Notes: generated by a model from the letters alone, not told the origin. Positions 23,119 through 26,433 are shown, numbered from the stretch's first letter. The stretch: 64,000 nucleotides of DNA from Melioribacteraceae bacterium (GCA_022181065.1 BQMY01000092.1:1-64000); one strand, 5' to 3'. Made by a program: numbers and translations.

Positions 23119-23143
23119 AAACCCGCGAATAAAAATCCGCGGG
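23117..23143 (-). terminator. Terminator of the cytochrome-porin gene
   Basis: Arms CCCGCG (23122-23127) and CGCGGG (23138-23143); on the minus strand the stem runs into TTTTTA. It lies between the convergent pdxB and cytochrome-porin genes and may also stop pdxB transcripts. Confidence 0.7.
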
Positions 23144-23152
23144 CATTAACCA

Positions 23153-24271
23153 TCAATACCAGAAATGGAATTGCACAACAAATACATTGTTGGCAACTTG
23201 CGGATCTTCAAAATTAAATCTGTACTGAGGCCTTATCTCAACAAAACTGTAAGGGAAATATTCCAATCCAACAATCATACGCGACATTTCGTCAAGATCG
23301 CTATCAGTGTTAGGATCGATCATATCGTATCTTACAATTCCTTCAAGACCGATCATAAATCTGTATGAAGCCTTAAGCATGAGGTAGTTTGATTTCAATT
23401 CATTCATGATATCGGCATCGTAGTTATCGCCCATATCATACTCACCCATAAGGGCAATTTTATCGTAACCCAGTCCGGCAAAAAAGCCGTAAATTTTTGA
23501 TTTTTGTCCAAAATTACCCGGAGTATTAAACGCCGTAAATGAGCCGCCGAAAAATGTACCGAGCTTGCCGATTTTTGGTGTAAATTCTGCTCTTGCCGTG
23601 TAGATCGGGTCTTTACTGAATATCTGACCGTTCAGTGAACTTCTTCCCGCGCTTGCCGTAATGTAGGCTATTTTACCAAGATATGCCCCGATTTCAATAC
23701 CTGTTTCGGTATAATATGGTGACAGGTATAATCCGGGTGCAAAGGAGCCTGGTGCGGTGAGACCAAAATCACCACCGCGCGTGTAGGCGGTATGATCATC
23801 AAGCCTTATTCCAAAGTTGGGTGTAAATGTACCAACTTTTATATAGCTGTTGTTCGGTAGAATCCTGGCTACACCGTAACCTTCAAAAACCTGTGTTATA
23901 AAATCGTATTTCGCAAAAGCGTCGATTTTCTCATTGATCTTCAGAGTGGCATACATTGCCGCTGACATTTTCTGAAAATCAGTTTTTTTCAATTGTTCGG
24001 CATATATATACTGTGTTCTGAAATCCATTCCGAGATAGATATTCTCGCCAATTTTTGGTGAAGTAGATAATATCTTGTCGCGAGGTGATATCATGCCCAC
24101 AACATTTTTCCCGAAATACCAGCCATTTTCATTTCGCGCCATACCACCGGAAGGATTTACATGGCAATCGATGCATCGGCTGTCACCCTGTTGGAGTCCG
24201 AAACGTGGAAGCGCAAATAATTCAGCGCCAAAAAAGAGGAAAATCGCAAAAAATAGTAAGATTTTTTTCAT
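23153..24271 (-). CDS. Monohaem cytochrome-porin fusion (Cyc2-like layout)
   Basis: A 372-residue outer-membrane protein. Signal peptide at 1-20. Residues 22-55 contain one haem c motif, C33-IDC36-H37, in the frame LPRFGLQQGDSRCIDCHVNPSGG...NGWYFG. The rest (about 70-372) consists of alternating amphipathic strands (YLGMDFRTQYIYAEQ, AAMYATLKINEKIDAFAKYDF, SYIKVGTFTPNFGI) and ends with FVVQFHFWY, a classic beta-barrel C terminus. One N-terminal CXXCH before a barrel is the layout of Cyc2-type iron oxidases, whose haem motif is also preceded by F-x-x-Q-x-G, but this protein is shorter. Role in surface electron transfer is inference. GGAG precedes the ATG at 24271. Two further CXXCH genes lie upstream on the same strand. 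Confidence 0.82.
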   Translation of the reverse strand: MKKILLFFAIFLFFGAELFALPRFGLQQGDSRCIDCHVNPSGGMARNENGWYFGKNVVGMISPRDKILSTSPKIGENIYLGMDFRTQYIYAEQLKKTDFQKMSAAMYATLKINEKIDAFAKYDFITQVFEGYGVARILPNNSYIKVGTFTPNFGIRLDDHTAYTRGGDFGLTAPGSFAPGLYLSPYYTETGIEIGAYLGKIAYITASAGRSSLNGQIFSKDPIYTARAEFTPKIGKLGTFFGGSFTAFNTPGNFGQKSKIYGFFAGLGYDKIALMGEYDMGDNYDADIMNELKSNYLMLKASYRFMIGLEGIVRYDMIDPNTDSDLDEMSRMIVGLEYFPYSFVEIRPQYRFNFEDPQVANNVFVVQFHFWY

Positions 24272-24546
24272 AAACTCTCCATAAAGCAGCCGGTGAACCG
24301 GCAAAAATTTGTTGAGAAGCTATATTAAAGATTCCTGTTTTTGAATATTCTTTCAAATACGGTAGAAACGTACCATGCCTGCCCCGCGGTGCGGGGGTAC
24401 GTCTCAGTTCTTAAATCACTTTTTGTATGATGAGGATGACCAACTATCTCAATAAATAGAATAAATCATCCTCCGTCTTTCGACTATCGTCGAAATCCAC
24501 CTCCTTCAAAAGGAGGATCATTAAAATATTCAACCTTGTTAACAGC
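24272..24546. repeat. Intergenic stretch with CATCCTC hairpin repeat
   Basis: No gene. A hairpin repeat at about 24466-24517 (CATCCTCCGTCTTTCGAC...CACCTCCTTCAAAAGGAGGA) has a second copy at 28282-28336. The rest is AT-rich and holds the upstream region of the cytochrome-porin gene, including its ribosome binding site. Confidence 0.7.
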
Positions 24547-24621
24547 AAAAGACGCAATTACGCCAATGCGCACAAAATATTGCGTCCCTACATTGCACTA
24601 TGCACTATGTACACAGCACTA
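24547..24621 (-). repeat. Dispersed repeat at T9SS gene 3' end, short relative
   Basis: Read on the minus strand: TAGTGCTGTGTACATAGTGC, starting at the TAG stop of the upstream T9SS cytochrome gene, then a hairpin GACGCAAT...ATTGCGTC (24551-24586) and TTTT. This is the same order (stop codon, AGTGC run, GACGC hairpin) as the copies at 2985-3190 and 35324-35551, but shorter and diverged. Confidence 0.6.
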
Positions 24622-25305
24622 CTTAAGCAGAACCATCTGTTTGGTTTCGGCATAACCATCAACAGAAACTCTGTAGTAATAAACACCCGATTCAAGTTTT
24701 CTACCTGAATTATCAGTAGCATTCCATTTTAAGGAATGGTTACCGGGATTATAATATTCGTTTGCTAAAGAGCTTACCAAAGCACCGATAGAGTTGTAAA
24801 TATCAACTCTCACGTTAGCGCCTTCAGTTAATGAAAATGAAATATTGGTTGAAGGGTTAAACGGATTAGGATAATTGTTATGGAGCTCGAAGTAGAGTGG
24901 TGAGTGCAAATTGTGAACAGATGTAGGGTTTGGTTTATCATCAGGGTCACCCGGATTTGTTACAAGAGTCGGATCGCCCGGAGCAGGTGAACCCGCTGTC
25001 CAGGTACCGTCAGGATCCTGTAGCTCTTCACCGTTTGTAAAACCGTCACCGTCACTATCAAGCGCCGCTAATTGCGCATTCCAGACCACCTGTCCCGCGG
25101 AACCGGGAGCGGTCAAAAAATTGGCTTCAACTTCCTGTCCGAAAGCGTTTTTAGGTCCGCCGCCAAACTGACTAACGTGACACATGGCACAATCGATTTG
25201 ATTGCCGTTAGGAAGCTGTGCCACCCTGAATGACCTTCCCACAAGAAAAGGTATTGAAAACAACATAATTGCTGTTATAGTAAAAAGTATAGAAGAACGT
25301 TTCAT
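24619..25305 (-). CDS. T9SS-exported monohaem protein with temptin-like domain
   Basis: A 228-residue protein. Signal peptide 1-23. Residues 25-120: SFRVAQLPNG, haem motif C39-AMC42-H43, FGGGPKNAFG, then LDSDGDGFTNGEELQDPDGTW (Ca-binding-like loop) and NPGDPD. Apart from the haem motif, the order PNG - GGGxxNxFG - DSDGDGxTNGxEL - DPxxxW resembles the temptin domain known from animal pheromone proteins. Residues 140-228 are a T9SS sorting domain (NNYPNPFNPSTNISFS ... KQMVLLK). GGGGG precedes the ATG. Likely a surface-attached monohaem protein; redox role is inferred. A close paralogue lies directly upstream. Confidence 0.84.
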   Translation of the reverse strand: MKRSSILFTITAIMLFSIPFLVGRSFRVAQLPNGNQIDCAMCHVSQFGGGPKNAFGQEVEANFLTAPGSAGQVVWNAQLAALDSDGDGFTNGEELQDPDGTWTAGSPAPGDPTLVTNPGDPDDKPNPTSVHNLHSPLYFELHNNYPNPFNPSTNISFSLTEGANVRVDIYNSIGALVSSLANEYYNPGNHSLKWNATDNSGRKLESGVYYYRVSVDGYAETKQMVLLK

Positions 25306-25478
25306 TTATCCCCCGATAGTATAATGTATAATGATTTAAGATTTTACATCCGAATATTATAAATTTTTTATATTAAATCCGTGATATCTGCTATGTGGAA
25401 AAATATTTGACCTGAAACAGTTATCTGTATGCGGTAGCATTTTAACGGATTGTTTATTTGAAAGGTTCAATAAAAAAA

Positions 25479-25501
25479 TGCCGGTCTTGTTCAGACCGGC
25501 A
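25479..25501 (-). terminator. Terminator between the two monohaem T9SS genes
   Basis: Nine-base arms TGCCGGTCT/AGACCGGCA with a short loop, followed on the minus strand by ATTTTTTTA. It means the two paralogues are probably separate transcripts. Confidence 0.85.
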
Positions 25502-25509
25502 AATTAAAA

Positions 25510-26433
25510 TTATTTCATCAACATCATTTTGATTGATTTCGAAAACTCACCAGCTGTGATGTGTGCTATGTAAACACCACTCGACAGGTTTGAAGCATCA
25601 AACTGATAGTTGTATTCTCCCGCCTGGAGAACACCATTAACCAATGTAGAGACTTTTTCACCAACAGAATTGTATATATCAAGTACTACCTGATTCTGCG
25701 CGGCAAGAGTGAAGCTCAGATTCGTGGTTGGGTTGAACGGGTTAGGATAGTTCTGCGCCAATTCGTAAGAAGTAACACCTTCGAAATTAACTTCTTTTGG
25801 TCCGTAAACTTTTTCGGTACCATCGTAATCTCTCTGGATCAAACGATAAAATGAAGTTCCATAAACGGGGAATTCATCAGTGAAATTGTATTTGTTTACT
25901 TCTGAAGTTGTACCAACACCTTCAACGAAAGCTATCTGAGACCATTCCTCCTGGTCAAGAGAACGTTCTACCTGAAAACCATCGTTGTTTGTCTCTGTTG
26001 CGGTTGTCCAGTTAAGAACAACTTTACCGTTAACAGCAAATGCTGAAAAAGCGGCAAGTTCAACAGGAATAAAGCTGTCTGGATCACCCGGATTAGTGAC
26101 CATACCCGGATCACCCGGAGCAGGATCACCCGATTGCCATGTACCATCAGGATCCTGAAGTTCAACACCGTTTGGAACACCATCACCGTCACTATCAAGC
26201 GCGGCTAATGCTGGTCCCCATTCTACATGCCCTGAAGATCCGGGTGCGGTCAGGAAGTTTGCTTCAATTTCACCACCGAAATCGTTTCGTGGTCCACCTG
26301 GCGTTACATGACAGTTGTCGCAACTGTTAATGTTACCGTTTGGTATTTCAGCCACTCTGAAACTCCTGCTGACAACTATTGTCATGGCAACGGTAAGAAA
26401 GATAAAAAAAGTAAAAAGGATTTTTTGCCTCAT
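25510..26433 (-). CDS. T9SS-exported monohaem protein with temptin-like and FnIII-like domains
   Basis: A 308-residue paralogue of the protein encoded downstream. Signal peptide 1-22; SFRVAEIPNG; haem motif C38-DNC41-H42 followed by VTPGGPRNDFG; EANFLTAPGSSG; LDSDGDGVPNGVELQDPDGTW; then an Ig/FnIII-like domain (about 123-215, IPVELAAFSAFAVNGKVVLNW) that the paralogue lacks, and a T9SS sorting domain (AQNYPNPFNPTTN ... SIKMMLMK). AAGGAG lies five bases before the ATG at 26433; a longer frame from 26529 lacks support. Divergent from the propeller gene at 26674. Confidence 0.84.
   Translation of the reverse strand: MRQKILFTFFIFLTVAMTIVVSRSFRVAEIPNGNINSCDNCHVTPGGPRNDFGGEIEANFLTAPGSSGHVEWGPALAALDSDGDGVPNGVELQDPDGTWQSGDPAPGDPGMVTNPGDPDSFIPVELAAFSAFAVNGKVVLNWTTATETNNDGFQVERSLDQEEWSQIAFVEGVGTTSEVNKYNFTDEFPVYGTSFYRLIQRDYDGTEKVYGPKEVNFEGVTSYELAQNYPNPFNPTTNLSFTLAAQNQVVLDIYNSVGEKVSTLVNGVLQAGEYNYQFDASNLSSGVYIAHITAGEFSKSIKMMLMK

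Follow-up and report, generated by a model that had tools for sequence, protein, structure and literature searches.

A Cyc2-like cytochrome-porin and its temptin-type neighbours with T9SS tails in a Melioribacteraceae genome

Layout of the locus

The window analysed here, a stretch of 64,000 nucleotides, corresponds to contig C92 in the 4.9-Mb draft genome of a Melioribacteraceae bacterium, of the Ignavibacteria group. Read from 26433 down to 23153 on the minus strand, it carries three adjacent genes in the order T2 (P0003), T1 (P0002) and P (P0001), flanked by genes in the opposite orientation. As the initial annotation had described, each of the three products begins with an N-terminal hydrophobic, signal-like segment and contains exactly one CXXCH motif, at residues 33-37 in P, 39-43 in T1 and 38-42 in T2. 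The similar haem setting claimed for all three is also present: GG and then RN/KN..G follow the motif in each protein. The features are listed below.

26433-25510, minus strand: T2 (P0003), second temptin-domain protein with a T9SS tail, 307 aa (ORF, profile matches)
26308..26322, minus strand: CXXCH of T2 (CDNCH), residues 38-42 (read from the ORF)
25534..25749, minus strand: T9SS sorting domain of T2, residues 229-300 (profile match)
25479..25501, minus strand: strong terminator-like hairpin after T2, between T2 and T1 (from sequence)
25305-24619, minus strand: T1 (P0002), temptin-domain protein with a T9SS tail, 228 aa (ORF, profile matches)
25177..25191, minus strand: CXXCH of T1 (CAMCH), residues 39-43 (conserved in 42/42)
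24631..24873, minus strand: T9SS sorting domain of T1, residues 145-225 (profile; fold matches the C-terminal part of PorU)
24271-23153, minus strand: P (P0001), cytochrome-porin, 372 aa (ATG at 24271; 16-strand model, OprP/OprO fold)
24074..24214, minus strand: haem module of P, residues 20-66 (resembles the haem segments of Cyc2 and temptin)
24161..24175, minus strand: CXXCH of P (CIDCH), residues 33-37 (invariant in family alignments)
23159..24040, minus strand: predicted 16-strand beta-barrel of P, residues 78-371 (structure model and fold matches)
23708..23824, minus strand: third extracellular loop of P, residues 150-188, with the invariant DDH 158-160 (loop number inferred from strand order)
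23165..23167, minus strand: His369 of P, candidate distal haem ligand (117/119 haem-bearing and 0/21 haem-free relatives)
23121..23144, minus strand: strong terminator-like hairpin after P (from sequence)

Because of the hairpins after T2 and P, together with a gap of 347 bp between T1 and P, the three genes probably do not form a single transcript here.

Haem module and barrel of P

Searches of P0001 against Pfam, NCBIfam and the sequences in the PDB returned nothing significant, only sub-threshold noise. An AlphaFold2 model built from 79 homologues (pLDDT 86.4) placed 16 strands C-terminal to the haem module, and the best PDB folds for the barrel were OprP (2O4V, TM 0.61) and OprO (4RJW, TM 0.60). 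The outer-membrane barrel proposed earlier is therefore upheld by the model; its ending, given as F-W-Y, is corrected to H-F-W-Y, with H369 four residues from the end. Full-length P was found in 20 genomes (57 genomes of the same family searched), and its family extends across the window's class, with more distant relatives as well (named genomes and 395 genomes of the phylum scanned). By sequence similarity, P is a member of a widespread, unnamed protein family.

The CXXCH motif is found in 126/126 P homologues with the haem module, a set collected by a whole-protein profile in which CXXCH was then required; it is also invariant in a 20-row family alignment collected by sequence similarity alone. 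Among the positions that do not vary across 79 P proteins are D83, R85, M102, D158-D159-H160 and H369. The histidine at this last position, His(-4), is present in 117 of 119 complete P proteins, the remaining two having Lys. Relatives of the P barrel that have no haem belong to Porin_O_P (PF07396), and they carry His(-4) in 0/21 cases, with Gln at the position in 11; P0001 itself did not match the PF07396 profile and lies under Pfam detection. The correlation of His(-4) with the haem module is new here, and it pinpoints one residue for mutation. Judged from conservation and topology, H369 is likely the second (distal) haem ligand: it would lie where the last strand ends on the periplasmic side, adjoining the junction between the haem module and strand 1. 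The likely alternative, on the same two grounds, is H160 in the third extracellular loop. P thus combines the features used here to recognise a c-type cytochrome, namely an invariant CXXCH, a conserved distal ligand, here a predicted one, and maturation genes in the genome.

The layout of P recalls that of Cyc2, in which one CXXCH is fused to a 16-strand barrel best modelled on OprP/OprO, and which is defined by a signal peptide, a single CXXCH, a fused 16-strand porin and a length of at least 365 aa (Keffer 2021, PMC8406198). P has a signal peptide, one CXXCH, a 16-strand porin and 372 aa. Two further motifs are diagnostic of Cyc2, AXPXFAR[Q/K][T/Y] upstream and PXL downstream of CXXCH, and each was found in 0/126 P proteins. 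A partial PxFA was seen in 78/126, and the spacing from Pro to the first Cys was 10 in 111/126, matching that in the fetched Cyc2s.

Profile comparisons located the similarity in the haem module. Between P and Cyc2, the modules aligned in hhalign with 94.2 %, E 1.1e-7 and a score of 33.4 (best of 60 column shuffles, 16.5), and the barrels with 0.3 % and a score of 17.4, within the shuffle range; the full-length match (95.6 %) stems from the haem module. When the P haem-module profile was run against 220 CXXCH proteins, P ranked at the top and temptins next (mostly E 1e-8 to 1e-5), followed below them by Cyc2 (about 1e-3 to 0.03). Nearly all other cytochromes gave E above 0.08, the exception being one four-haem protein at 1e-3.

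The Fe(II) oxidases Cyc2 and Cyt572 resemble P in the N-terminal CXXCH, in an AxPxFA-type segment equally far upstream of it, and in often having small cytochromes as gene neighbours. Unlike Cyc2, P is without R[QK][TY] and PXL, shares with temptin an NPxGG..RN that follows CXXCH, contains the invariant DDH loop and His(-4), both absent from the fetched Cyc2s, and has a T9SS-tailed neighbour. Porin_O_P proteins (OprP/OprO) share the 16-strand fold with P but are without the haem module, His(-4) and DDH. On sequence grounds, P is Cyc2-like and not a Cyc2: haem module and layout are common to both, and P falls outside the family definition. The earlier view that Cyc2 is the closest known layout holds for layout and haem module and fails for membership.

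Three other P-related sequences were encountered. A homologue in CP070637.1 (L179:5749-6753) has the C-terminal His and is without the CXXCH module, perhaps through recent loss. An 89-aa ORF (L039:7683-7952, G014:C236) consists of the P haem module alone and resembles a truncated P gene. A contig labelled Candidatus Hodarchaeum, an archaeon (L120, JAEOUE010000170.1), has a bacterial P gene and is probably misbinned.

Temptin-domain proteins and their haem motif

T1 and T2 both matched Temptin_C (PF24784; P0002, E 1.7e-14, 54.5 bits; P0003, E 2.7e-11, 44.2 bits; curated cut-off 27) and Por_Secre_tail (P0002, E 1.2e-7; P0003, E 4.6e-11), in agreement with the T9SS tails first noted on these temptin-like proteins. 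With a C-terminal sorting domain over the cut-off in each and PorU encoded in the genome, T1 and T2 classify as T9SS type A cargo. They differ from ordinary cargo of this type in carrying a haem c motif. The family name Temptin_C derives from a mollusc pheromone; the bacterial members described here have a CXXCH that never varies, together with a T9SS tail. T proteins also carry a TSP3-like loop, and longer ones have fn3 or Ig-like domains.

Forty-two distinct T proteins, collected without CXXCH as a requirement, all contained the motif, His included. Their haem segments aligned with those of P at 96.7 %, E 4e-10 and a score of 47.8 (best of 60 column shuffles, 18). No second invariant His or Met was found in the T haem domain, so the haem could possibly be five-coordinate, have an unusual ligand or be missing altogether. 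The T1 model had a pLDDT of 65 overall; its sorting domain alone was modelled well and matched part of PorU, and the low confidence of the haem domain meant that no haem ligand could be read from it.

T genes away from P were found in redox surroundings. In G005, T follows genes that resemble ccmC-ccmE-ccmF as read from sequence, and in G046 it follows ccmF, which is itself preceded by ccmC and an octahaem gene (Pfam). In G014 (L101:3746-6298), T lies 139 bp downstream of a gene for a T9SS-tailed cytochrome of 850 aa with 16 CXXCH motifs. Motif conservation and this gene context, of ccm genes and multihaem cytochromes, suggest that T carries haem. Such contexts point to a redox role over the adhesion or sensing that the initial annotation had offered as an alternative.

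The CXXCH of T could instead form a disulfide or hold another metal, leaving P as the sole cytochrome. The lack of a second invariant His or Met, the low-confidence model and the absence of Temptin_C from the curated cytochrome families all fit such a role, which we nevertheless regard as unlikely given that CXXCH with its His is invariant in the T proteins, that in two genomes the T gene follows ccmF or ccmC-E-F, and that the segment resembles the haem segments of P and Cyc2.

The window's genome encodes PorU and cytochrome c assembly proteins. It also contains an ORF (G000:C133, about 590-2569 of L330) whose 659-aa product has nine CXXCH motifs as well as a T9SS tail and appears to be a T9SS-exported multihaem cytochrome. 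At least 150 T9SS tails were counted in this genome (G000). In L106 (6587-8465), and upstream of T in L093 and L100, longer temptins adjoin YceI-like genes; L106 additionally has a small CX4CH protein, possibly a further redox cluster.

Gene neighbourhood and a possible electron route

We compared the gene neighbourhoods of 116 non-identical P loci. Same-strand genes at most two positions from P encoded CXXCH in 46/195 cases and genes further away in 11/729, an odds ratio of 20 in which the loci are not independent. Mapped onto a tree built from 115 P proteins, the label for a cytochrome neighbour other than T required 10 changes, at least 8 of them on starred branches, which suggests that cytochrome neighbours of P were gained repeatedly. 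The label for a T neighbour required 4 changes, and all T loci fell inside one 41-row clade. The non-T partners are monohaem PSCyt1-type, dihaem reaction-centre-type and class I cytochromes; in one family the partner is a hexahaem MtrC-like protein, joined in G419 by a Rieske protein.

These partners bear on a further reading of P, in which it is an OprP-type porin specific for its substrate and its haem, through its redox or ligand state, sets the flux, so that the haem gates or senses and there is no electron conduit. The OprP/OprO fold and the Porin_O_P relatives would suit such a porin, as would the conserved charged residues and DDH loop in the barrel and the inability of one haem to span the membrane. 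That small cytochromes, a hexahaem protein and a Rieske protein recur as partners of P suits electron transfer better, and Cyc2, whose layout is identical, is an iron oxidase (PMC8406198); we consider a gating or sensing haem quite improbable.

Twenty genomes of the window's family have full-length P; in 16 of them T is the gene immediately upstream, and the genes around the T-P pair vary in several of these. T is present somewhere in 19/20 genomes with full-length P, compared with 16/34 without it. It occurs in 35/54 family genomes and is thus commoner than P, which implies that T has uses without P. In other families, P is found without T. The T-P adjacency may partly reflect common descent, though the flanking genes differ. 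The T-T-P arrangement was seen in two lineages only, those of the window and G027 (the latter locus also catalogued as L112), with the second T as an additional copy. We rejected a conserved three-gene operon on this distribution and on the terminator-like hairpin between T2 and T1. Of the joint system proposed at the outset, the T-P pair stands and the conserved three-gene system does not. The barrel, the co-occurrence and the conserved CXXCH, the lack of any of which had been named as refuting the proposal, are all present for the T-P pair.

P might also be the electron-transfer unit by itself, with T an independent surface protein for adhesion, matrix or signalling (it has a calcium-binding DSDGDG loop) and the linkage an inherited gene order without function. 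The numbers of T relative to P in the family, the restriction of the linkage to one clade, the other partners or none that P has elsewhere, and the TSP3-like loop and fn3 or Ig-like domains of T proteins are what such independence would predict. Set against it are the retention of T next to P despite differing flanks, the enrichment of T in P-bearing genomes, the resemblance of the T haem segment to that of P, and the ccm and multihaem cytochrome genes beside T elsewhere. On balance, we judge an independent T rather unlikely.

The explanation we favour, with moderate confidence, is that P is a cytochrome-porin working in the manner of Cyc2 to move electrons through the outer membrane, and T its T9SS-exported partner. 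It draws on the barrel fold, the common haem module, the conservation, the gene linkage and the T9SS tail, all of them computed. P and T probably pass electrons across the outer membrane, since P has a Cyc2-like layout and T is its usual neighbour in the family. One haem c would be bound to the short N-terminal module of P and, judged from the place of this module just before strand 1, would sit at the periplasmic mouth of the 16-strand OprP-like barrel, with His369 in the last strand or His160 in the third loop as the second ligand. The electron path across the outer membrane suggested initially is not supported as a simple haem-to-haem wire, because a single haem near the periplasmic end of P cannot span the membrane; as a linked T-P pair, it is retained. 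For the same reason, a soluble substrate or partner must reach the P haem, which would exchange electrons between periplasmic cytochromes and either a substrate that enters the pore or a docked partner. T would receive its single haem in the periplasm and be exported by T9SS and held on the surface, where, through presumed contact, it may hand electrons to P or receive them from it. Alternatively, T may bind the outer donor or acceptor.

MtrCAB, MtoAB and PioAB use a 26-strand barrel and a separate decahaem wire (PMC8406198). They resemble the T-P pair in combining an outer-membrane barrel with a cytochrome and a surface cytochrome partner. The MtrB_PioB barrel (PF11854) had no match in the window's genome. 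More tentatively, and with considerable doubt that every part will hold, we propose that T and P form a two-piece minimal outer-membrane electron route, in which P is an OprP-like monohaem porin distinct from Cyc2, T is a monohaem temptin-type protein brought to the surface by T9SS, and the haem modules of P, T and Cyc2 are variants of one small unit on different carriers.

To our knowledge, the fused cytochrome-porins known so far are Cyc2 and its relatives, which serve as markers for iron oxidation. A literature search (temptin and cytochrome; T9SS and cytochromes; Melioribacteraceae outer-membrane cytochromes) returned no description of the T-P pair, nor of cytochrome-porins of the P kind in Ignavibacteria, which are reported in iron-rich waters. 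Subsurface metagenomes have yielded Ignavibacteriales in which genes for oxidizing iron and genes for reducing it were both annotated (PMC8478452). The P family is common in Ignavibacteria, and similarity-based surveys of iron genes could miss or mislabel it, since P looks Cyc2-like and falls outside the Cyc2 tests. The T-P pair is a small testable system, and T9SS may place haem proteins on the cell surface. Genes with the Cyc2 motif, located by a DNA pattern across the phylum, were found at 22 places in 21 genomes; three of these genomes belong to the window's own family, and two of the three also have P.
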